DNA of 64,000 bases, taken from NCBI RefSeq assembly GCF_008801835.1, contig NZ_VZOW01000015.1, positions 62,001 through 126,000 on the forward strand, written 5' to 3'. Made by a program: the position numbers and the translations under genes. The notes under the pieces are model-generated. The model was not told the origin of the DNA. It saw only the letters and a list, made by a program, of their open reading frames with translations, and ran no database searches. The first letter of the stretch is position 1; the number at the start of each line of letters is the position of its first letter. Shown piece after piece: positions 41,388-52,535 of this stretch. This DNA is from Cupriavidus pauculus. GTDB lineage: Bacteria; Pseudomonadota; Gammaproteobacteria; Burkholderiales; Burkholderiaceae.

Positions 41388-42623
41388 ATGGCCGCCTTCA
41401 ACTATCGTCAACTCATCCGCCAAATCCCTGCACGGACTTGGGCGTTTTACTTTCAGTCTCGCAAGCTGGAACTGCCCGGCGAGCTTGCCGGCGACAAGCT
41501 GGTCAGCACCGTCATCGACATCATCGATGCCTTGCCTGCGGCCCAGGGTGCGGCGGTGTATGCCGAACTGCGGCGCGTGCATGCCCTGGCCAACGGACGC
41601 GGGATCGATGCCCTGCGCAACACCGCCCCACCGGACTCGGCGATCCATGAGGATTTCACGAAGTTCTCCAGCGATGCCGAGCGCGCCTTGTGGGTCATGG
41701 CCAACTGGCCCGATCTGTTCGCCACCGCCGAGGCCATCTACGCCGTCAGCCTGCGCATCGGCAAGCGTGGCTGGAAACGCTTGCAAGTGCCGCCGGTCGA
41801 TGCGCTGTTCCGTGGCCAGGAAGACATTCGCGCCCTCGAGGTGGCACTGGCCACCGCATTCACGCCGCGCAAGGGGACGCCACGCGCCTGTCAGATCGAC
41901 ACCTTGGATCGTCATCTGGATGGTGGCGTGCAACTGGGCATCCTCATCGAGGACAACGCCCAGCGTCAGCTGGAATTTGGCGACGACAACCGGGCGCACT
42001 GGCGTGACGTCCGGCCACCCATGGCGATGGATGTCGTCATCTACCCGGCCAGCGGTGTGATTGATGTGCTGGCGCCCGGTGGTGCCAAGACACAGCAGAC
42101 CTTGCTGGAGCACCTCGGCAAGCATGTCTTCAAGAAAGTACTGCAGCCCACGGATGTCGAGAAGCCGATGTTTTTCCTGAATCGTCTGCGGGATGGCTTC
42201 GAGCTTTTCGATGACAGCGAATGTGACCTGGCGGCACACCGGGTTGAGCGCATCCGTTTGTCACAGGCGAAAGTGCGGGCCATCCATCCCCCGATCTGCG
42301 ACTACCAGATCAAGCCGCCGGGGGAGAAAGACGCGCCCGATGTGCTGGCCTGTCTCGCTGCCCAGCAAATCAGTCCCATCCTGATGGGACAAGGCTTCAA
42401 CATCATCGACGCCGTGGTCTCGCTGTACTTCGAGCCGCTGCAGCCGGGAAAAGCCAGCCGTGTGCTGCACATCGATCTCAAGCAAAGCGGGATCAGCAAT
42501 CTGCGGGACATGGAAGAGGCTGACGCCCGGCTGGTGGAATCGCTGCTGCGCGCACTGGGTGTCATGCAATCACCCGCGACGGCCAAGCTGGCGGAGGAAG
42601 CCGAAGGAGTCATGCATGAATGA
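41388..42623 (+). CDS. Unrecognised protein of a two-gene cassette (A)
   Basis: 411 residues, starting MAAFNYRQLIRQIPARTWAFYFQSRKL. It shows no membrane span or enzymatic motif. The middle (about 165-260) has a beta-rich segment with LGILIEDNAQRQLEFG and AMDVVIYPASGVIDVLAPGG; an Arg/Glu-rich helical end follows. The ATG has AGGA 9 bases upstream. It overlaps the next gene by 8 bp and lies beside the ImmA/repressor pair. A role in immunity, defence or lysogenic conversion is a guess. Confidence 0.7.
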   Translation: MAAFNYRQLIRQIPARTWAFYFQSRKLELPGELAGDKLVSTVIDIIDALPAAQGAAVYAELRRVHALANGRGIDALRNTAPPDSAIHEDFTKFSSDAERALWVMANWPDLFATAEAIYAVSLRIGKRGWKRLQVPPVDALFRGQEDIRALEVALATAFTPRKGTPRACQIDTLDRHLDGGVQLGILIEDNAQRQLEFGDDNRAHWRDVRPPMAMDVVIYPASGVIDVLAPGGAKTQQTLLEHLGKHVFKKVLQPTDVEKPMFFLNRLRDGFELFDDSECDLAAHRVERIRLSQAKVRAIHPPICDYQIKPPGEKDAPDVLACLAAQQISPILMGQGFNIIDAVVSLYFEPLQPGKASRVLHIDLKQSGISNLRDMEEADARLVESLLRALGVMQSPATAKLAEEAEGVMHE

Positions 42624-43590
42624 GGTGGTCGCGGTCATGAACGACCAAGGGCTGGCCGAGATCTGCCGCCTGCTCGAGCGTGAAGACATGCTGATCTCTC
42701 CTGACGCGGTCTGGCTTTCGAGTCGGCCCGGTTTCTATGGTCATCTGCTGGCCCTGGATGCCATCGCCATCAGCCGCGAGCGTGCAATGGACATCCTCTG
42801 CCCGGAGTGCGGCACGAAGTCCATGCGGCCGCAGCCACACGACGCGCCAGAGTCGCCACCCTATCGCGGCTACTGCCCGGAATGCGGGTGGGTCGGTCTG
42901 GCGAATCAACAGGCGCACTTTTGGCAGGTGCAGCCCCAGAAGCTGGCCAGGTGGTTGTCAGCAGGATTGGGGCTGGCCCCGCGTTATGCCGTCGAGCCGA
43001 TCGTGGACAACGTCTTGTGGCGGCTGGGTGAGTTCGAACATCGACGCCGGCGGCACACGGTTTTCTTTGGACGTCGCCTGAGCGCGATGTCCGATCAGGT
43101 GGCAGCCAAGCTGGCGCAATTGGTGGCGCCCGGCGCTGAGGTGATCATCACGGCGGGAGAGCCTGCGTCCTTGCTCGGTACCGCCTTGGGCGATCGCCTG
43201 TTGGTGCCGCTGCGGGCCATTGCCCACATCCGCAAATCCGGGCTGGTGATCGAGAACCTTGAGGCATATCTGACCCGTCCAGCACCGGTGCAGGAATCGA
43301 CGGAGACGTCCCTGCGACTGATGCACACCCAGCGCGTGGCGCTGATCAATGGTGAGCCGATCGACCTCTCACCTCAGGTCTATCTCTTCCTGAAGATCCT
43401 GGAGGACGCCGATGGCGACGAAGTGCACAAGCGGCACATGGCCGAAGGGCTTGGCCTTGAGCCTGGCACCAGCTTCCGGACGGCAGACATTTTCAAACGC
43501 CACAAGCAGGTCTACATCACCTTTGTCGACAAGGACGACAAGGGGCACTACTGGCTCAAGCCTGACTTCCTGATCTTGGAAAGGGGGTGA
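42616..43590 (+). CDS. Unrecognised protein with zinc ribbon and winged-helix-like end (B)
   Basis: 324 residues from the ATG after AAGGAG. Cys62-x2-Cys65 and Cys87-x2-Cys90 (CPECG repeated) form a zinc ribbon. The C-terminal 80 residues (INGEPIDLSPQVYLFLKIL ... HYWLKPDFLILERG) look like a winged helix of the OmpR/transcriptional type. It could be a DNA-binding partner for protein A, with which it overlaps by 8 bp. No family is recognised. Confidence 0.7.
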   Translation: MNEVVAVMNDQGLAEICRLLEREDMLISPDAVWLSSRPGFYGHLLALDAIAISRERAMDILCPECGTKSMRPQPHDAPESPPYRGYCPECGWVGLANQQAHFWQVQPQKLARWLSAGLGLAPRYAVEPIVDNVLWRLGEFEHRRRRHTVFFGRRLSAMSDQVAAKLAQLVAPGAEVIITAGEPASLLGTALGDRLLVPLRAIAHIRKSGLVIENLEAYLTRPAPVQESTETSLRLMHTQRVALINGEPIDLSPQVYLFLKILEDADGDEVHKRHMAEGLGLEPGTSFRTADIFKRHKQVYITFVDKDDKGHYWLKPDFLILERG

Positions 43591-44221: not shown

Positions 44222-44466
44222 AACGTGCTACCGATTCGAGGGTCACGCCAGGCAAGGCTTTGCAGGCTGTTAAGAAACGCAAAGCAGCCTAAATCCTGTC
44301 ACAACCCGGCACATTGACGGCACATCCCGTTTCAATGCCGGCACACCGCGCCAAGTCGGGCGTCCGCGCGACTTCCTTACGGGCACCTTGTCCAACCTGC
44401 CTTGCCTCCAGCGCGTTACAATTCCGCCGTTTGTGCCGAGGTTGCCGGCCACCGGTAGGCGGGGAT

Positions 44467-44889
44467 ATGGACTCTCTGACGACACGCGAGCGAAGCGAGC
44501 GCATGGGACGAATCAAGGCTAAGGACACCAAGCCTGAAATGCTCGTTCGGCGGCTTGTTCATGGCATGGGGTTTCGATATCGACTCCATGACGCCCGCCT
44601 CCCCGGCCGTCCTGACCTGGTTTTTCCGGGGCGAAGGAAGGCGATCTTCGTACACGGCTGTTTCTGGCATCGCCACGAGAACTGCAAGCTCGCGCGGTTG
44701 CCCAAATCTCGTCTTGAATTTTGGGTGCCCAAGCTCCAGGCGAACTGGGAACGGGACCAGCGCGACGCGCGGGAACTTGGCTTGCTCGGCTGGAAAGTGC
44801 TTATTGTGTGGGAATGCGAGTTGAAGGATCGAATGGCACTAGCCTATCGAATTAGAGAATTTCTTGAGAGATCGGAGAGTCACGAATGA
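44467..44889 (+). CDS. vsr: Vsr-type very short patch repair endonuclease
   Basis: 140 residues from the ATG of MDSLTTRERSERMGRIKAKD. Asp50 in GRPDLVF is the counterpart of the catalytic Asp of E. coli Vsr; FVHGCFWHRH and ENCKL carry the conserved His and zinc Cys. It nicks T:G mismatches left by deamination of 5-methylcytosine, and so protects the genome from mutation by the adjacent methyltransferase. It overlaps that gene by 4 bp. Confidence 0.9.
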   Translation: MDSLTTRERSERMGRIKAKDTKPEMLVRRLVHGMGFRYRLHDARLPGRPDLVFPGRRKAIFVHGCFWHRHENCKLARLPKSRLEFWVPKLQANWERDQRDARELGLLGWKVLIVWECELKDRMALAYRIREFLERSESHE

Positions 44890-46106
44890 ATGCCGTTGAG
44901 CTCTACGCAGGTGCTGGTGGTCTCGCGATGGGCGTTAGCCTCGCGGGATTCAAGCCGCTCGCCGTGGTCGAATGGGATAAGTGGGCCTGCGACACGATTC
45001 GTGAGAATCAAAAGCGAGGTTATCCGCTCGTTGAAAACTGGCCGCTCCATGAGGGCGATGTACGCGAGTTCGATTGGAGCGGAATTACTGAGGAGGTGGA
45101 CCTTCTCGCCGGTGGGCCGCCGTGCCAGCCATTCTCGATGGGCGGTAAGCACCAGGCGCACGATGATAGTCGCGACATGTTCCCGGCAACAGTCGATATT
45201 GTCCGCAGACTCAGGCCAAAGGCCTTCATCGTGGAAAACGTGAAGGGGCTGACACGCTCCACGTTCGCGAATTACTACCAGTACATCTTGCTTCAGCTGG
45301 AGTTTCCTGAGAGCCCGCGCCGGCGTAGCGAAACATGGTTCGACCATCTGCTGAGGCTTCAGGCAGAGCGGTCGAGCGGCCGACAGAAAGGAAAGAAGCT
45401 TACCTACAACGTCAATCCCACACTGGTAAATGCCGCAGACTATGGCATTCCGCAGAAGCGCGAGCGCGTCTTCATTGTCGGTTTTCGTTCAGATCTCGGC
45501 ATAGAGTGGGGCTTCCCTCGTCCCACTCATAGTTACGATCGCCTTCTGTACGATCAATGGGTAACGGGCGAATATTGGGAGCGGCATAACATTTCTCGAC
45601 GCTCTCGCCCGACGATGCCTTCATCCTTGGAATCGAGGGTGAAAAAGCTGGCGTCCTCGCTTCTCCCTTTGGATACGCTGCCATGGCGGACTGTAAGGGA
45701 CGCGATCGCTGATCTCCCGCATCCGCAGTCTCGAGCTGCGGCAGCCTATGCTGATCACCGTTTTCAGCCCGGAGCGAAGGTATATCCGGGCCACACCGGC
45801 AGCCCCCTTGATCTTCCAGCCAAGACCCTCAAGGCTGGTGACCACGGTGTGCCAGGCGGTGAGAATATGTTGGTGAACCCCGATGGTACTGTACGGTATT
45901 TCTCAGTCCGGGAATCCGCTCGGATTCAAACGTTTCCAGATGGTTTCGTGTTTCATGGATCGTGGACCGAGACAATGCGTCAGCTTGGTAACGCGGTCCC
46001 TGTTGCGCTCGGCCATATTGTCGCGCGAAGCGTCGCGGAACACTTAATTCGCGCCGAGATGGAAACCATCGTGCGCCGACAGGACATGCTGCGAGGCGTT
46101 GCATGA
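44886..46106 (+). CDS. Type II DNA (cytosine-5) methyltransferase, Eco29kI-type
   Basis: 406 residues. AdoMet motif LYAGAGGLAMG (6-16), catalytic Cys80 in GGPPCQPFS, ENV near 118, PQKRERVF, and C-terminal GNAVPVALG are all present. It forms an overlapping operon with Vsr and a GIY-YIG nuclease of the Eco29kI type, so the target is probably CCGCGG. That site is inferred from the nuclease family, not read from this protein. Base composition is lower in GC than flanking phage genes, indicating transfer. Confidence 0.93.
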   Translation: MNAVELYAGAGGLAMGVSLAGFKPLAVVEWDKWACDTIRENQKRGYPLVENWPLHEGDVREFDWSGITEEVDLLAGGPPCQPFSMGGKHQAHDDSRDMFPATVDIVRRLRPKAFIVENVKGLTRSTFANYYQYILLQLEFPESPRRRSETWFDHLLRLQAERSSGRQKGKKLTYNVNPTLVNAADYGIPQKRERVFIVGFRSDLGIEWGFPRPTHSYDRLLYDQWVTGEYWERHNISRRSRPTMPSSLESRVKKLASSLLPLDTLPWRTVRDAIADLPHPQSRAAAAYADHRFQPGAKVYPGHTGSPLDLPAKTLKAGDHGVPGGENMLVNPDGTVRYFSVRESARIQTFPDGFVFHGSWTETMRQLGNAVPVALGHIVARSVAEHLIRAEMETIVRRQDMLRGVA

Positions 46107-46759
46107 CCGATTCCAACATCATCCCCTTTAACCCACTCGACAAGAAGAATCTCGGTGCAAGCGTGGCGGAAGCCATGCTAGAACAGAAGGCCCGCCCGCT
46201 CGGTGAGCTCAAGCCATTTTTTGGCGTTGGCATCTACGCGATTTACTACACCGGCGACTTTCCCGAGTACGCGCCGCTAGCGGAACGGAACAGGGAGGGC
46301 CAGTTCAGAGCCCCAATCTACGTTGGCAAGGCCGTTCCTAAAGGAGCCCGAAAAGGCGGGGGCGTGGGTGAGTTGCGGAGCCGAGCGTTGTTTGATCGAT
46401 TGAAGGAGCATGCCGAAAGCGTCGAAGCGGCTCTGAATCTGAATGTGGAGGACTTTTACTGTCGCTTCCTCGTCGTTGACGATATCTGGATTCCGCTCGG
46501 AGAGTCCTTGCTAATCGCAAAGTTCTCTCCCGTTTGGAACGCTCTGATTGATGGCTTCGGTAATCACGACCCTGGTAGCGGTCGATACAATGGTCTTCGT
46601 CCGCGATGGGATGTGCTTCATCCAGGGCGGCATTGGGCTGAGAAATGCGCGCAAAGAAAGGAGACTCAAACAGAGATCGGTCGCGATGTAGAAAACTACT
46701 TCAAGACCATTTCGTTTCCCGCATCTCATCACGTGCTAGGGCCCGGCCAACAGCCATGA
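46103..46759 (+). CDS. Eco29kI-family GIY-YIG restriction endonuclease
   Basis: 218 residues, near Eco29kI (214). GIY at 43-45, YVG at 73-75, Arg99, His103, Glu134 and Asn146 reproduce the spacing of the Eco29kI active site (Arg and His 4 apart, Glu and Asn 12 apart). Eco29kI cuts CCGC/GG. The start overlaps the methyltransferase stop by 4 bp. A terminator hairpin follows. All key residues are present, so the system looks intact. Confidence 0.9.
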   Translation: MTDSNIIPFNPLDKKNLGASVAEAMLEQKARPLGELKPFFGVGIYAIYYTGDFPEYAPLAERNREGQFRAPIYVGKAVPKGARKGGGVGELRSRALFDRLKEHAESVEAALNLNVEDFYCRFLVVDDIWIPLGESLLIAKFSPVWNALIDGFGNHDPGSGRYNGLRPRWDVLHPGRHWAEKCAQRKETQTEIGRDVENYFKTISFPASHHVLGPGQQP

Positions 46760-46874
46760 TTTGATTGGGCATAGGCGTACAAGGGGCTGGTTGCGCGAGC
46801 GACTGGCCCCTTTGTCTTGTGGGGATGGGCTCAATGCGTCGCGCCAGAGCCGATGCTTCGTTGAGTTCGTGCAT
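46701..46874 (-). CDS. Possible small ORF with a strong ribosome-binding site
   Basis: 57 residues, MHELNEASALARRIEPIP at the start. GGGGGAAAGG precedes the ATG, but the 3' half overlaps the terminator and the end of the restriction gene in a convergent sense. It may be the remnant of a gene cut by insertion of the restriction-modification island. Confidence 0.3.
   Translation of the reverse strand: MHELNEASALARRIEPIPTRQRGQSLAQPAPCTPMPNQIMAVGRALARDEMRETKWS
46781..46817 (+). terminator. Terminator after the restriction gene
   Basis: AAGGGGC pairs with GCCCCTTT across a loop, followed by TGTCTTGT. It ends the Vsr-methyltransferase-endonuclease transcript. Confidence 0.65.
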
Positions 46875-46960
46875 ATCCTTTCCCCCTGTCGCTAGCTATT
46901 GCGGCGGCGCCTAGCCTCGCGCTTGAGCGCCCACGGATCCTGCGTGGTCAGTGTGGTCGA

Positions 46961-47335
46961 TCAATCGTTCTCTTCTCGCCGGCGGCGTTCTTCCGCCAGG
47001 CACGGCTCTTCCTCCAATTCGCGGCGCAGCGCGCCAATCACGATGTCCAGTGCCGTGGCCGTCTGTGCCGGCGGACGGGGAAGCACGACAGCAGCGGGGG
47101 AAGCACGACAGCAGCTGATCTGCGCGTCCGACGATGGCTGTGCAGCCGCGCTATTTCCCACAGAAGCGCGCGCACCTCGGGCGACCGGTTGCGCCGATAC
47201 AGCGCTCGCAGCTCGATGGCCGACAACGGCGCGGGATAGCGCGGATCGTTCCGCTGGCCAGAAAGGTAATCAGCCTTCGCGCGTCCATGTGACGGCGTCG
47301 GGTGTGTGCTTCCGGCTGCGCATGAGCATTTCCAT
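46961..47335 (-). pseudogene. Decayed small gene behind an SOS box
   Basis: The start MEMLMRSRKHTPDAVTWTREG stops at once; one base fewer would continue to DYLSGQRNDPRYPAPLSAIELRALYRRN, and a second shift near a 14-bp duplication (aagcacgacagcag twice, about 47,080-47,115) leads to TALDIVIGALRRELEEEP and the stop at 46,961. I read this as one gene of about 130 residues with two frameshifts. The product was probably a small helical protein of unknown role. Confidence 0.42.
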
Positions 47336-47341
47336 CTACTG

Positions 47342-47357
47342 CTGTATATATGTACAG
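47342..47357. promoter_or_regulatory. LexA-type SOS box 1
   Basis: CTGTATATATGTACAG is a perfect CTGT-N8-ACAG site with an AT-rich centre. It lies 6 bp before the decayed minus-strand gene and overlaps its -10-like TATACT. Confidence 0.78.
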
Positions 47358-47390
47358 TATAAATCAAGGATAAGGCTAAATTCGGTGGGG

Positions 47391-47693
47391 TGTCGGGAAA
47401 AAGGTAACTTCGGTAACCTGTGGACGGGAATCGACCGGAAAGCGTTGCCAGATAAGGCATTGCGGGTTTCAGTGCAAAGGTAACATTGGGGTAACTTTAG
47501 GGTAACCAGATTACCTTTAGTCTTGGTAACTTCCTCGGTACATCATCCCTAATAAAATCAATGACTTAGCGGCAGGTTACCTTCTGTGTTACCTCAGATT
47601 ACCTTTTGCAGGTAACCTAAAATGCTCAAATAAATCAGATGGTTAGCTTCATTCTCTAGGGCGGATTACCGAGGTTACCTTTTTCCCGACCTG
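47391..47693. repeat. GGTAACC array with inverted-repeat ends
   Basis: At least 13 copies of GGTAAC or its complement (some as GGTTACC or ATTACC) lie within 280 bp in both orientations. The ends form an inverted repeat (GTCGGGAAAAAGGTAAC at 47,391-47,408 and its complement at about 47,674-47,690). No gene is convincing here. It resembles an initiator-binding array, that is, a replication origin of a satellite or prophage. Confidence 0.8.
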
Positions 47694-48031
47694 CCCCCGG
47701 TCCATAGCTTTCGTTGGTGCTGCTGGGCCTAGTCAGCAGAGGCTGGCGACGTCCGGTGCGGACGGGTGCAGAACCACTGCGGCAGGTGCGTAAATCTGCG
47801 TAAGTGGATGCGCGGGGCAAATCGCCTGCGGCCCCCGTGCTGGCGAGGCCCGCAGCCGGTTGCGTCGATGCATAAAAACCACTCGATGAAGCGGGCGGGT
47901 GAGGCGGGGTCTCCACCGCGCGCCGAACGTGACAGTTGAGGCGTATGACCTTAATGCCACTGCTCACCTCGGCCTTGTGGAACGGCGTCGTGGCAGGCAC
48001 GATACGGGCACCTGCTAATGCAGCGGCGATG
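47694..48031. other. Stretch without a supported gene
   Basis: A minus-strand frame is open throughout (for example SSGIKVIRLNCHVRRAVETPP) and continues into the array, but it has no clear start or ribosome-binding site and its composition (Pro/Ser/Thr/Ala rich) is not convincing. I do not call a gene. Confidence 0.4.
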
Positions 48032-48047
48032 CTGTATATTTGTACAG
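48032..48047 (+). promoter_or_regulatory. LexA-type SOS box 2
   Basis: CTGTATATTTGTACAG, a second perfect CTGT-N8-ACAG site, 43 bp before the DprA-like start, overlapping a TATATT -10 candidate. A TGGGGC-GTT-GCCCCA hairpin follows at about 48,065-48,079. Confidence 0.78.
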
Positions 48048-48089
48048 TGATGGACGGTCCCCGCTGGGGCGTTGCCCCACCAGGATCTA

Positions 48090-48986
48090 ATGGAGAATGA
48101 CTTGAACACGTGGCCCGAACTCCTCGCGAACAAGCCCATAAATACCCTTGCTGAAATTGGGGCCTACGAGCACCTCTGGCAACAGCCGAATACAAGCACG
48201 AAGAAACTCGCGCAACTCTTCGAGTCCCATCCGGGTAGCCTGCCTTCCGACTTGGTGGACATAGACGTTGCCGAGCGGACGGCCGCTGAGGTTGTCAGGC
48301 ATTTCAACGAGAGTGGTATCAGGCGGTTCGGCGTCCGGATTCACGGTACGCATGACTATCCGTCGCGCTTACGTGACGCGGTCGAGCCGGTTGAGATGCT
48401 GTATTACCTTGGTTCTTGGGAGCTTGCCGAGGCTCCGCGCCGCGTAGCGGTTGTGGGCACTCGCAAAGTATCGAGTGAGGGGGCCGCCCGCACGCGAAAG
48501 CTCGTAAAGGCGCTTGTAGAACATGACTTCACGGTGGTGTCTGGGCTAGCTCAAGGGGTGGACACCATAGCCCACGAGACAGCCATCAAATATGGTGGCC
48601 GTACTATTGCCGTGATCGGTACCCCCATCTCAGAGGTGTATCCGAAAGAAAACGGCGATCTGCAGCGGCGCATCGCCGAGGACTACTTGGTTGTGAGTCA
48701 AGTGCCGGTCTTGCGCTATATGAGCCAGACTTGGAAAGGCAATCGATTTTTCTTTCCTGAGCGGAACAAGACCATGTCTGCGTTGACGGAAGCTACGATT
48801 ATCGTCGAAGCCAGCGAGACGTCAGGCACCTTGATCCAAGCTCAGGCCGCGCTCAACCAAGGCAGAAAGCTGTTTATCCTTGAGAGTAACTTCCATAATT
48901 CTGCCATTACATGGCCGGCGAAATTCGAGAAACTAGGAGCGATTCGCGTACGCGAATTTAACGATATCGTTCAATCGCTTTCCTGA
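48090..48986 (+). CDS. DprA/Smf-like protein (SLOG fold)
   Basis: 298 residues from ATG with AGGAT upstream. The Rossmann-like core has VVGTRKVSSEG (121-131), SGLAQGVDTIAHE (151-163), AVIGTPISEVYP and a late ASETSGTLIQAQAAL, matching DprA/Smf. The N-terminal region differs from SAM-type DprA and there is no C-terminal winged helix. Chromosomal DprA loads RecA on incoming DNA; mobile-element homologues with phosphoribosyltransferase partners have been proposed to act in conflict systems. It has an SOS box upstream and a 2-bp gap to its partner. Confidence 0.85.
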   Translation: MENDLNTWPELLANKPINTLAEIGAYEHLWQQPNTSTKKLAQLFESHPGSLPSDLVDIDVAERTAAEVVRHFNESGIRRFGVRIHGTHDYPSRLRDAVEPVEMLYYLGSWELAEAPRRVAVVGTRKVSSEGAARTRKLVKALVEHDFTVVSGLAQGVDTIAHETAIKYGGRTIAVIGTPISEVYPKENGDLQRRIAEDYLVVSQVPVLRYMSQTWKGNRFFFPERNKTMSALTEATIIVEASETSGTLIQAQAALNQGRKLFILESNFHNSAITWPAKFEKLGAIRVREFNDIVQSLS

Positions 48987-48988
48987 CC

Positions 48989-49693
48989 ATGCCCCTGCCC
49001 CCCATGCCGAGCCGGCTCACCGTCATTGGCGAGCGTGAGAAGCCAGATCATCATCATCTTCCGGCCGATTCGATGTGCTATTTCTGGGGCGAGTACACGC
49101 CGCATGAACACACCGATGGCAAGAGGTGGGACTACTCGTCCACAAACAAGCTCATGAGCAATTTAAAGAAGAAGATGGATCGGGCGGGGCAGTGGGATTG
49201 GCACTACAAACAGGAGGCGATCCAAGATGCGGCGAATGCATTCGCGCGCAGTTGGAAATGGACCGACTTACACGAGACGCATCGCGTTGCGTTGATACCG
49301 ATTCCGCCCTCGAAGGCGCGAGCACACGCGTTGTACGATCCGAGAATGCTACAGGTTGTCCAGAACATTGCGCAGAGAGCCGGGTTGCCGCTTGACATAC
49401 GTGACTGTCTTTCGTTTAGCGGGAGATACGCTGCTAGTCATGAGACAGCGGATCGTCCGACACCCGACGAGCTTTACGAAGATCTGACATTTGACGCGAC
49501 GGTGGGCCGTCCAGGACAACCCCCCGGCGTCATCTTCTTGTTTGACGATATGCTCACGGCAGGTTCCCATTTCGTCGCCGTGAAGCGGCGGCTCGCGGAC
49601 GTCTTCGGCGACGTTCCTGTAGTGGGCAACTTTGTGGCACGGCGTATATTGCCGAACCCGTTTGCCGACTTCGATGACCTCGACGCAATCTAG
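48989..49693 (+). CDS. Phosphoribosyltransferase-fold protein (ComF-like)
   Basis: 234 residues. VIFLFDDMLTAGSHF (about 181-195) is the PRPP-binding loop of type I phosphoribosyltransferases, with ALIPIPPSKARAH earlier. There is no N-terminal zinc finger as in ComF. It lies 2 bp after the DprA-like stop, so the two form an operon. Base composition is AT-richer than the phage genes. It may make or use a nucleotide that the SLOG-fold partner senses; this is inference. Confidence 0.8.
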   Translation: MPLPPMPSRLTVIGEREKPDHHHLPADSMCYFWGEYTPHEHTDGKRWDYSSTNKLMSNLKKKMDRAGQWDWHYKQEAIQDAANAFARSWKWTDLHETHRVALIPIPPSKARAHALYDPRMLQVVQNIAQRAGLPLDIRDCLSFSGRYAASHETADRPTPDELYEDLTFDATVGRPGQPPGVIFLFDDMLTAGSHFVAVKRRLADVFGDVPVVGNFVARRILPNPFADFDDLDAI

Positions 49694-49713: not shown

Positions 49714-50757
49714 TTAGAGACGTAGCGAATAGGGGTCAAACCGGACCACGTCCTGTCCCAGCCAGGAATTGACTTCCTGCAGCCGATCCTGCAATGGTTT
49801 TACCTCGTTTCGCGCGAAGACCAATGCCGCCTTCTCCGCATCCCCGAAGCCTCCGGTGTTATTCGGAATGATGCCCATCAGCTGCGGCGGCACGCGGTGC
49901 GCGGCGAGCTGGTCGTCGCGTGTCACGTTCTTGATGTTCCAGAACTCGTCCTTGGCCGCGACTTCAGACACCGGGATCAGCTGAATGCCTTCCTTCTTGC
50001 CGTTGGGCGCGTACATGAACAGGTTGCGGAAATTGCCGGGCCCCTTGCTGTTCTTGAGCGCCTCGCGCAGGTTGTCGACGTCTTCCTGTTTCTGCGCGGC
50101 GTCGGTCATGTACAGGATGAAACCTGCGTGACTGCCGTTCTTGTAGTAGCGTCGGCGAAACAACGTTGCCGACTCATTCAGCCAGGTCGCATTCAACGCC
50201 GACAGGTATTCGGGCAAGCCGTACACCTCTTGGTTGATGTCGGGCTCCATCAGATGAAAGATGCTGCCCGGTTTGAATTCGTGCTTGTCCTGCCAGTTCT
50301 GCACAAAGAAATACCGCGCGAGGTCCGTGCCGCGCCGCATGTACTTTGCAAGCGCCGGCTCCAATGCCGTCGGACGCCCTAGCGCATTGTCGCGGCGCTC
50401 CAGATACCCGTTGCCGAATACAAGGAAGTCCTGCACCCAGCGCGCAAACGAAGTGCGCGACAGCAGCTTGTGCGGGATGAATGTCGACACGAGGATGTTG
50501 CGTTTCACGTAGATGGGCGAGCTGTTATGGACGGCCGCGCGAAACGTGCGCGCCAGCCCGTCCCACGGCATCGGCGGCTCGAACCATTCGCCGACGCGCT
50601 GGCACTCGATGTAGTCGAGCAGCTCGCGACGGTCGAGCACGGCAACGGGATCGCCAAAGGAGAACGCCTCCATCGTCGCCGACGCAGGGGCCGTTGTGAC
50701 CGGTGGCGCGGCGTGCTTGATCACGTCCGGCGCGCGGCCTCTTTTCTTACGGGTCAT
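49714..50757 (-). CDS. Q: Portal protein (P2 gpQ)
   Basis: 347 residues, close to P2 Q (344). It has EAFSFGDPVAVLDRRELLDYIE, FLVFGNGYLERRDN and DAEKAALVFARNEVKPLQ, all typical of P2-type portals. The ATG overlaps the terminase stop by 4 bp. It starts the P2-like structural region and is transcribed leftward with P. Confidence 0.94.
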   Translation of the reverse strand: MTRKKRGRAPDVIKHAAPPVTTAPASATMEAFSFGDPVAVLDRRELLDYIECQRVGEWFEPPMPWDGLARTFRAAVHNSSPIYVKRNILVSTFIPHKLLSRTSFARWVQDFLVFGNGYLERRDNALGRPTALEPALAKYMRRGTDLARYFFVQNWQDKHEFKPGSIFHLMEPDINQEVYGLPEYLSALNATWLNESATLFRRRYYKNGSHAGFILYMTDAAQKQEDVDNLREALKNSKGPGNFRNLFMYAPNGKKEGIQLIPVSEVAAKDEFWNIKNVTRDDQLAAHRVPPQLMGIIPNNTGGFGDAEKAALVFARNEVKPLQDRLQEVNSWLGQDVVRFDPYSLRL

Positions 50758-52535
50758 GACAGCTCCATGATGCTGGTATTGGTGGTAGTGACGCCTTCGA
50801 GTGGTTCGTGTGCGATGGCGTGCATGCATGCCCACGCGAGGTCCGCGTGGCTTGTTTCTTCGGATCGGCCGGCCTGGTACGTGACGCGGCCGCCAGCCGC
50901 AGTGGTGGTCTTGCGGATCGACATGAACGAGGCAGCGAAGTCGGTCCACCCGGCGTCGAACTCCAGGCGCCCTTTGCTGATCACGTCGTGGGCCTTCAGC
51001 ACGAGGCCGGTCTTCACATCGACCGAGTAGGTGAAGCCCTCAGCATCGGGCCGGAACTTGATCACGAGCTGATAGACGGCATCGCCGATGCCGGTGCGAT
51101 CGATGCCGATGTATGCCACGTTGTAGCGCTCGGTGACGCGCTTGATGGCGGTTGCCTGCTCTTCGTAGTCGATGCCGCGGAATTGGTGTTTCTCCAGCAC
51201 GCGGAACTTTCCGCCCGGTACGAGCGGGGGCGCCACGACCACCAGCGCGGCACTGTCGCCACCGCCGCCGTTCGGGTCGTAGCCCACCCATACCTCACGA
51301 TTACCGAAAGGGCGGGGCGACCAATGGCGGAAGTCCTCCCACACCTCCCAGCTGTCGACCATGCCGCGCATGAGCATCGACAGCGGGAAGACAGAGGCCG
51401 TGTCATCGATGAAGCCGCACATCAGCAAGTTCTCGAAGTCCGCGTCGCTGTACTCCAGCCGCAACTGGTCGAGGTCGAACAGGTTGCAGCCACCGGCGAT
51501 GGCGTCTTCCACCGTGACGATCTGTTTCCACTGACCGTCCGCGCACCGCCGGCCGTCCTGCAGGTTCGCGTGGCTGACGTCAACGCGGATGTGGTCTTCC
51601 TTCTTCCGCCCGCGATTGAACAGCGCGCCAGACCAGAACGGGTACGCTTCGTGGGCAAGGCTCGAAGGCGTCGAGAAATATGTCTGCCGCCACTTCGAGT
51701 GGATGGCCATCCCGGAGGCCACCTTGCGCAGCTCTTGGAAGCGCTGGATCCAGAAGTACTCGTCCAGATAGAGGTTGCCGTGATAGCTCTGCGCGGTGCG
51801 TGCGTTTGTGCCGAGGAAATACAGCGTCGCGCCGTTCGGCAACACCATCGGCTCGCCCTTCAGCTCCACGCCGGCAGCATCCTTCGCGAACTGGATGATG
51901 TATTGCTTGAAAACGTGGGCCTGCGCCTTGCTGGCCGACAAGAAAATCTGATTGCGCCCCGTGCTCAACGCATCAATGAAGGCCTCCCGTGCGAAATACC
52001 ACGTGGCACCGATCTGGCGGCTCTTCAGAACATTGCGGATACGCTCTGTGAGACCCGCTTCGTACCAGGCACGCTGGTAGTCGAACATTGAATCCTTGAA
52101 CGCCTCGACGAGTCGCTCCTGTTCCTCTTCGCTGATCGCGTTGCGCTCGGGGGCGCGCCGTGGTCCCTTGTTTCGATTTGCGACTTTCGGGTTCAGGTCC
52201 GCTTCGTTGCCGCTGTCCTCATACCGGCGCACACGCGCTAGTCGCTCGATCTGCCGCCCAAGCAGATCGATCTCCTTGAAGTCCTTTCCCTCCTTGTTCT
52301 CTTTCGCGATCAACTGCGCCATGCGCGTCTCGAGATTTGAACCTACGCGCGTCACGGCGTCAGCCCGGTCCCACTGTTCGCGCTGCTTCCAGCTGTGAAT
52401 CGTGGACGGCTTCTTGCCAAGCATCTCGGCGATGCGGGCCACGCGATAGCCCTGCCAGTAGAGCGCGCGCGCAATGCGACGCGGCTCCATCTCGGGGTCC
52501 AGCGAAAGCGAGGTGATGGGCTGAAGCGTAGTCAT
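50754..52535 (-). CDS. P: Terminase ATPase subunit (P2 gpP)
   Basis: 593 residues, near P2 P (590). The N-terminus (ARALYWQGYRVARIAEMLGKKPSTIHSWK) is a helix-turn-helix, followed by the ATPase part (LKSRQIGATWYFAREA) and a C-terminal nuclease-like domain with VGYDPNGGGG. It packages DNA with gpM. It is divergent from the scaffold gene, as in P2, and shares the intergenic dyad. Confidence 0.94.
   Translation of the reverse strand: MTTLQPITSLSLDPEMEPRRIARALYWQGYRVARIAEMLGKKPSTIHSWKQREQWDRADAVTRVGSNLETRMAQLIAKENKEGKDFKEIDLLGRQIERLARVRRYEDSGNEADLNPKVANRNKGPRRAPERNAISEEEQERLVEAFKDSMFDYQRAWYEAGLTERIRNVLKSRQIGATWYFAREAFIDALSTGRNQIFLSASKAQAHVFKQYIIQFAKDAAGVELKGEPMVLPNGATLYFLGTNARTAQSYHGNLYLDEYFWIQRFQELRKVASGMAIHSKWRQTYFSTPSSLAHEAYPFWSGALFNRGRKKEDHIRVDVSHANLQDGRRCADGQWKQIVTVEDAIAGGCNLFDLDQLRLEYSDADFENLLMCGFIDDTASVFPLSMLMRGMVDSWEVWEDFRHWSPRPFGNREVWVGYDPNGGGGDSAALVVVAPPLVPGGKFRVLEKHQFRGIDYEEQATAIKRVTERYNVAYIGIDRTGIGDAVYQLVIKFRPDAEGFTYSVDVKTGLVLKAHDVISKGRLEFDAGWTDFAASFMSIRKTTTAAGGRVTYQAGRSEETSHADLAWACMHAIAHEPLEGVTTTNTSIMELS

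Follow-up and report, generated by a model that had tools for sequence, protein, structure and literature searches.

A host-type LexA operator precedes a prophage-borne short-subtype ShosTA operon in Cupriavidus pauculus and recurs upstream of shosA in other lineages

ShosTA is a toxin-antitoxin defence system, described as follows in the passages of a review (PMC12593503) that deal with Pu et al. 2025. ShosT, a phosphoribosyltransferase (PRTase) and pyrophosphatase, interferes with purine metabolism, and as a result the cells undergo DNA duplications, form filaments and die. ShosA is a DNA-binding protein that likely favours homologous recombination; the trigger of the system is Gp0.7 of phage T7. 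Structures have been solved (8zva and 8zvb-d), which are probably those of Pu et al. 2025 (Nat Commun 16:3141); judging by title and release date, 8zvb-d would come from the same strain and paper as 8zva. A DprA-PRTase gene pair of the P2 hotspot defends against T7 and lambda, as reported in the part of Rousset et al. 2022 (PMC9122126) concerned with it. We describe here a pair of this kind, at 48032-49693 of a 64,000-nucleotide stretch of the Cupriavidus pauculus genome (contig NZ_VZOW01000015.1, positions 62,001 to 126,000; called the window below), which is preceded by a LexA operator. The reading that we favour, and hold to be probable though well short of certain, is that of a prophage-borne, short-subtype ShosTA defence operon which the host LexA represses at the 48032 box and which works in the manner proposed below.

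The operator, or SOS box (CTGTATATTTGTACAG, 48032..48047, forward strand), matches CTGT-N8-ACAG exactly and stands 42 bases ahead of the shosA ATG. In the 64 kb window this pattern is found at two sites only, 48032 and 47342. The whole genome (6.4 Mb) holds 46 sites, which corresponds to about 0.0009 expected per 120 bp, and since the reversed pattern, taken as a control, yields 36 sites in the same genome, many of the 46 are due to chance. At least six of the eight central bases are A or T in 19 of the 46, the shosA box included. Two CTGT-N8-ACAG boxes lie directly upstream of the host lexA (CTGTATAAAATCACAG and CTGTTTAAACATACAG), and one about 200 bp upstream of the host recA (CTGTATAAAAAAACAG). 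The shosA box is therefore of the host's own LexA type, and shosA has, close to its start codon, the kind of operator expected of a LexA-regulon member in this host. Compared with seven betaproteobacterial lexA regions, the host lexA region was closest to that of Cupriavidus basilensis (74-76%). The SOS box announced by an earlier, sequence-only reading of this DNA was thus confirmed as a perfect match of the host lexA and recA type, and it is backed by the comparison across lineages reported below. A second LexA-type box (CTGTATATATGTACAG, 47342..47357, forward strand, from the pattern scan) lies 690 bp upstream of the first; 18 of its 19 extended bases are those of the shosA box, and no obvious gene lies behind it. 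An extra box was also seen 1.4 kb upstream of shosA at another locus, L132. The region 47383-47699 contains a pair of 34-nt inverted-repeat arms (85% complementary) separated by 249 nt, and GGTAAC/GTTACC motifs occur several times in the intervening stretch and around the arms; an Rfam scan of 46700-48200 gave no match.

The first gene of the operon, shosA (48090..48986, forward strand), encodes a DprA-like antitoxin of 298 aa. Its open reading frame has an alternative TTG start at 48072; as a probable ribosome-binding site, AGGA (48082..48085, forward strand), precedes the ATG at 48090, 298 aa is the likelier length. The ATG of shosT, at 48989, follows 2 bp past the shosA stop, which ends at 48986 in the open reading frame list, and the gene (48989..49693, forward strand) encodes a type I PRTase toxin of 234 aa, of the short subtype. 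The two products match the PADLOC models ShosA PDLC03961 (350.8 bits over residues 19-296) and ShosT PDLC03962 (141.5 bits). ShosA also matches Pfam PF02481 (DprA, DNA_processg_A; E 3e-57) and scores 173.7 bits against the NCBI dprA model TIGR00732, under the cut-off of 191.15; a Pfam search with ShosT gave no match. ShosT is not of the long subtype, in which this protein has about 400-430 aa and is extended at its N-terminus: its 234 aa align to residues 155-365 of 8zvb-d and do not match PDLC03012. The pair belongs to the ShosTA toxin-antitoxin defence family, in its short-ShosT subtype, and is an already known system. What had been proposed as a candidate anti-phage or DNA-damage response system therefore belongs to a family whose defence activity is published, and is not new.

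AlphaFold models of both proteins, built from alignments of 61 sequences for ShosA and 82 for ShosT, had confidence values (predicted local distance difference test, pLDDT) of 95.0 and 95.8, respectively. The ShosA model aligned with Streptococcus pneumoniae DprA 3uqz (Z 29.9, root mean square deviation (rmsd) 2.9, 250 residues aligned) and with the ShosA of E. coli APEC O1, 8zva (Z 27.3, rmsd 3.4, 262 aligned). The 280-residue 3uqz aligns to residues 23-297 of the window ShosA, and the alignment with R. palustris DprA 3maj (353 residues) stops at 3maj residue 300. ShosA thus ends with the Rossmann domain and, like pneumococcal DprA, has no C-terminal domain, as had been noticed from the sequence. 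This Rossmann fold is common to LOG proteins, Moco carrier proteins and ThsA, which align at Z about 12-19, against 27-30 for DprA and ShosA. The idea of a SLOG-type nucleotide sensor, raised in the sequence-only reading, finds support in the shared fold only; we rejected it, as the closest structures, DprAs and ShosA, score far above LOG-type folds, and no sign of a nucleotide signal was seen.

For ShosT, the best structural matches were H. pylori ComF 7p0h (Z 13.5, rmsd 3.7, 172 aligned) and the solved ShosT 8zvc, which contains phosphoribosyl pyrophosphate (PRPP) and Mg (Z 11.8, rmsd 3.2, 173 aligned), followed by 8zvd (Z 11.1); chains of other families in the list all had Z of 8.9 or less. 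The predicted fold is that of a type I PRTase, and its nearest relatives are H. pylori ComF and the solved ShosT. In the PRPP loop (residues 181-192, VIFLFDDMLTAG, 49529..49564, forward strand), D186, D187 and G192 are invariant across the 82 aligned sequences. ComF has a four-cysteine zinc finger at its N-terminus. ShosT has two cysteines in the entire protein, by sequence count, so that such a finger is impossible, in agreement with the earlier description of a type I PRTase devoid of it.

Relatives of the pair were then compared for operators upstream of shosA. The ShosA alignment served as query, the ShosT alignment being too variable for a pattern scan. IMG/VR supplied 79 loci (best 80 of 122 matches) and GTDB genomes 80 loci (best 80 of 240); further relatives came from other genomes, phages and plasmids. 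A ShosA match was found in 179 entries, the window and its own locus (L004) both counted, of which 161 at 390 bits or more were used and 18 weaker ones dropped. After removal of the duplicate window and merging of similar upstream regions, 160 loci made 134 clusters. Controls were 8050 random windows of the same loci for the 161-locus count, and genes of the same loci for the cluster count. Conclusions were drawn from exact matches only, the one-mismatch scan for the alphaproteobacterial type being noisy (66/362 alphaproteobacterial controls). In this set, gathered by ShosA likeness, ShosT is the same-strand partner in 121 of 134 clusters, and lies 60 bp away or less in 118 of these; this neighbourhood check, which the sequence-only reading had called for, does not give the picture of a pair usually found in competence operons. 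Three sphingomonad loci (L192, L200 and L201) have a third gene after shosT, DprA-like, with 92-93 bits to the ShosA profile. A weaker second PRTase gene (43-47 bits) directly follows shosT in L003, L006, L144 and L155, and the upstream region is common to L003 and L155.

Searches with ShosT were less specific. A single-protein scan found none among genome contigs and one viral contig. At E 0.001, the ShosT profile found matches in 390 of the order's 399 genomes and also in 13 of the 14 controls; these weak matches are probably mostly other PRTases, and the upstream scan took only top ShosT matches accompanied by a ShosA gene of at least 390 bits. With the threshold at E 1e-20, the profile still matched in 5 of the 369 class genomes, that of the window among them, and no longer in any of the 14 controls. 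The long ShosT subtype was found in 0 of the 369 genomes, in a search that matched nothing anywhere.

Two LexA operator types are relevant here: GTTC-N7-GTTC in alphaproteobacterial hosts and CTGT-N8-ACAG in E. coli, as given in the passages on operators of PMC8565304, with the former likewise in those of PMC3091678. Exact CTGT-N8-ACAG was present upstream of shosA in 21 of 161 loci (the window twice), against 35 of 8050 random windows, and exact GTTC-N7-GTTC or its complement in 40 of 161, against 88 of 8050. The latter count includes twice a chance GAAC-N7-GAAC of the window, at +15 within shosA, which is absent from the cluster counts. One of these two types was found in 48 of the 134 clusters, and it was mostly the host's own type. 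In Alphaproteobacteria, 19 of 26 clusters had the GTTC type (controls 9/362; Fisher 4.8e-20) and none the CTGT type (controls 0/362), while in Betaproteobacteria 6 of 20 had the CTGT type (controls 1/213; Fisher 1.2e-6) and none the alpha type (controls 0/213), meaning zero crossover of operator type between the two classes. Gammaproteobacterial clusters had the CTGT type in 2/17 (controls 1/169) and the alpha type in 1/17 (controls 2/169). Taken together, boxed clusters were 19 GTTC and 0 CTGT in alpha, and 1 GTTC and 8 CTGT in beta plus gamma. Viral contigs had both, CTGT in 8/52 (controls 8/779) and alpha type in 9/52 (controls 9/779), and for other or unassigned hosts the figures were 0/12 (controls 0/100) and 2/12 (controls 2/100). 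Some exact matches were chance or off-type ones, at -3 in L049 and of the alpha type in L038 (Enterobacter). No exact box was present in the shosA upstreams of 5 acidobacterial clusters; a TTCGCC direct repeat was seen by eye in three acidobacterial upstreams (L141, L055 and L064). When the box labels were mapped on a quick tree of the 134 ShosA proteins, CTGT required 12 changes (starred branches force at least 9) and the alpha type 15 (at least 6 so forced). Boxes at shosA have arisen or vanished on many occasions, and the counts do not tell gains from losses.

The operator at shosA was next compared with that of lexA in the same genome. lexA was sought in 30 genomes, of which 26 gave a match, 22 above the family cut-off, and the upstream regions were read. 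Of 13 alphaproteobacterial genomes with a shosA box, 12 gave a lexA match, and all 12 had an alpha-type operator at lexA, at -30 to -291; the genome of L134 gave no lexA match, and that of L158 has a second lexA without box. Among seven beta- or gammaproteobacterial genomes with a CTGT box at shosA, an exact copy was present at lexA in three (L006, L127 and L194). In G208, a lexA-like gene (101.7 bits, below the cut-off) is preceded by two GAAC-N4-GTTC sites, and the shosA of the same genome (L007) by one, at -46, which makes this motif a possible third operator type at shosA, from one case. G427 has an alpha-type site near one lexA gene and none at shosA. No lexA match was obtained in G162, G630 and G726, and only C-terminal lexA-like matches in the genome of L130. 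Two operator types, perhaps three, are thus found at one gene pair, and match the host lexA in most genomes checked. SOS control of ShosTA seems to be recurrent but lineage-dependent.

Several results weigh against this interpretation. Neither main exact box type was found in 86 of 134 clusters, and the enrichment of the CTGT type in Gammaproteobacteria is weak (2/17 against 1/169, p 0.02). CTGT-N8-ACAG was absent at shosA from the E. coli, Enterobacter and Pseudomonas phage Riah-group copies, the Riah cluster having neither main type, so that ShosTA does not need SOS control in general. The shosA of Burkholderia phage Mana has a CTGT box, yet 4 of 15 Mana control genes are also boxed. In the other four of the seven beta- or gammaproteobacterial genomes boxed at shosA, only a one-mismatch CTGG-N8-ACAG was present at lexA (L123, L132 and L144) or none was seen (L178). 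Conversely, CTGT-N8-ACAG is present at lexA in two close relatives, L129 and L131, which have no exact box directly at shosA, the sole exact box of L131 being 1 kb ahead of the gene. GAAC-N4-GTTC showed no clear excess (2/161 against 45/8050), and is found at a lexA-like gene in G028 and G389 with no exact copy at shosA. In the window itself, no promoter-like sequence was scored at the 48032 box. Our confidence in a LexA-controlled ShosTA operon is slightly reduced by the lack of enrichment of the third operator type and by the unclean Mana control.

The operon is carried by a P2-like prophage. It is followed, on the reverse strand, by the portal gene Q (49714..50949; PHROG 68, E 7.6e-165), which is the right border of the hotspot, and by the terminase large subunit gene P (50754..52535; PHROG 3746, E 9.6e-151); tail genes carry on past the window end. 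On the other side lies a probable cos site (47909..47916, no strand assigned): the 55 bp at 47869-47923 are 80% identical to a stretch of phage Mana holding a PhageTerm-predicted cos, although 2 of the 8 cos bases themselves differ. The portal and terminase genes and the cos similarity place the pair between cos and portal, in the P2 hotspot. The left border, gpA, was not located. Burkholderia phage AP3 gave the best match among seven phage records, with 75.1% identity over 80% of the query. A similar arrangement was seen in viral contigs L044, L052 and L045, where shosA and shosT are followed by a like portal gene 0.4, 0.9 and 2.9 kb on, with an exact CTGT-N8-ACAG box at shosA in all three. 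In L001, which starts inside shosT, this gene is 0.6 kb ahead of a like portal, and in L094, which has no box, some 6 kb separate shosA from a related portal that lies ahead of it in the opposite relative orientation.

We propose that, in a healthy cell, LexA bound at 48032 would hold expression of shosA and shosT low. Damage at replication forks, phage-caused damage included, would let RecA assemble on single-stranded DNA and provoke LexA cleavage, upon which ShosA and ShosT would be produced together. ShosT, as a PRPP-using transferase, would upset the nucleotide pool and injure the cell's DNA, and ShosA, DprA-like and DNA-binding, would restrain it. Once a phage product disturbs this balance, infected cells would die or stall ahead of phage release. 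Because ShosT reportedly acts through DNA damage, SOS control would create a positive feedback loop. If this is true, the loop would be self-amplifying, damage giving toxin and toxin giving damage, with a threshold set only by the co-induced DprA-like antitoxin. A wider proposal, which we advance tentatively and would not yet call probable, is that ShosTA is an SOS effector module across much of Proteobacteria, repeatedly placed under the LexA operator of its current host, and that it provides abortive infection armed by fork damage. The recurrence of the operators argues that RecA/LexA damage sensing is part of ShosTA in several lineages, and not the accident of one prophage.

Other explanations of the box were considered. 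It might serve the prophage, the pair being induced along with it so as to exclude competitors or to steer recombination of the P2-like genome near cos. The location of the pair between cos and portal gene suits this proposal, as do the exact boxes of the portal-linked L044, L052 and L045 and of phage Mana; the unboxed L094, with its related portal, does not, and the operator is found more often at genome and plasmid loci of Alphaproteobacteria (for instance plasmids L039 and L042), which leaves us to judge it improbable, though the most serious competitor. Less likely again is that the pair is chiefly an SOS DNA-repair module, in which ShosA would load RecA or protect single-stranded DNA and ShosT would tune nucleotide supply, defence being secondary. 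Repair genes are typically under LexA, ShosA is structurally a DprA (Z 29.9 to 3uqz), and it likely promotes homologous recombination (review PMC12593503, passages on Pu 2025). This has to be set against the report, in the sources as far as they cover it, of ShosTA as a toxin and antitoxin with phage defence, and against the presence of relatives on phages and plasmids.

It is very unlikely, in our opinion, that the 48032 box is a coincidental match or a relic, and that the operon is expressed constitutively, as unboxed copies may be. The 86 clusters without exact box and the lack of a scored promoter would fit such a view, but a match is expected only about 0.0009 times in 120 bp, and of the five nearest homologues in the tree, L123, L044, L045 and L127 have the exact box and the fifth, L125, a one-mismatch form, also found in L124. 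As for a displaced competence dprA-comF pair, the DprA profile does match and ShosT is structurally like ComF; we rejected this origin as hardly credible, because the TIGR00732 score (173.7) is under the cut-off (191.15) when the ShosA and ShosT profiles match far better, the zinc finger is missing, and the context is a prophage. The preferred reading, a ShosTA defence operon under host LexA, makes a prediction: the short-type E. coli copies that we examined, which are unboxed, will not show SOS control.

Some neighbouring features deserve mention. The restriction system reported earlier alongside the pair is indeed present, as genes for Vsr, a C5 methyltransferase and an Eco29kI-type restriction endonuclease (44464..46759, forward strand; PADLOC, Pfam). 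A terminator-like hairpin at 46781-46812 follows them (one of 4 such sites in the stretch, where 2.7 are expected, and so weak alone); given this hairpin, the restriction system is probably a unit separate from the ShosTA pair. Further upstream, at 41388-43590, a two-gene unit encodes proteins of 411 aa (PHROG 37634, unknown function) and 326 aa (a weak Zn-ribbon match), with no Pfam or PADLOC match. Past the window, on the same contig (L205:6734-8987), two genes on the minus strand beside prophage tail genes match PHROG 5023 (unknown) and PHROG 3767 (nucleoid-associated protein), and are possibly another accessory cargo site.

Compared with the solved ShosTA (8zva, 8zvb-d), the window pair likewise consists of a DprA-like antitoxin and a PRTase toxin, with matching folds and the PRPP loop kept. 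The solved ShosT chains are longer, 393-424 residues against 234 aa, and align only over residues 155-365, and ShosA of the solved type has 318-331 aa and is 24-25% identical to the window ShosA. PADLOC also has separate models for the long type (PDLC02997/PDLC03012) and for the type of the window (PDLC03961/PDLC03962). As the window pair is of the short subtype, the activities of the studied ShosTA extend to it by analogy only: its ShosT may be toxic, and its ShosA may neutralise it, as in the other subtype. A Rhizobiaceae plasmid (L039:2100-5872) has short-type and long-type pairs together, in convergent orientation; the long-subtype shosA of this single case has no exact box. PsyrTA, too, has a DprA-like antitoxin, but the window ShosA matches its model PDLC03927 at 87.3 bits, far below the ShosA score, and PsyrT gave no match to the window PRTase at E 0.001.

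Closer to the window, a short-type ShosTA of E. coli (WP_001367158.1 / WP_000175354.1) is recognised by the same PADLOC models; its operon is overlapping, and no LexA box was found upstream in the two plasmid copies examined, which form one cluster. In E. coli M19, the short-type pair is flanked by cdiA-system genes on one side and a TOTE primase gene on the other; none of the 11 features listed there is a phage late gene. Short-type shosTA DNA of L040 matches 683 of 5426 complete E. coli genomes, with at least 80% covered in only 37; among 20 listed matches, taken at even steps, 13 were 3' parts adjoining an IS30 transposase gene. The DprA-PRTase pair of Rousset et al. 2022 is, like that of the window, cos-proximal and ahead of the portal gene gpQ in the P2-like hotspot, as described in the relevant part of PMC9122126. 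The window pair differs by its SOS box, the words SOS and LexA being absent from the main-text portion of that paper. No report of SOS or LexA control of ShosTA or of the DprA-PRTase pair was found in the literature searched, which did not cover the main ShosTA paper (Pu 2025), and the passages of papers that name both ShosTA and the SOS response draw no link between them. The pair and its hotspot were thus already known; what is new, as far as the literature searched shows, is a LexA operator that recurs at shosA mostly in the host's own type, which may bear on the regulation of ShosTA genes and on the use of a DprA protein as antitoxin.

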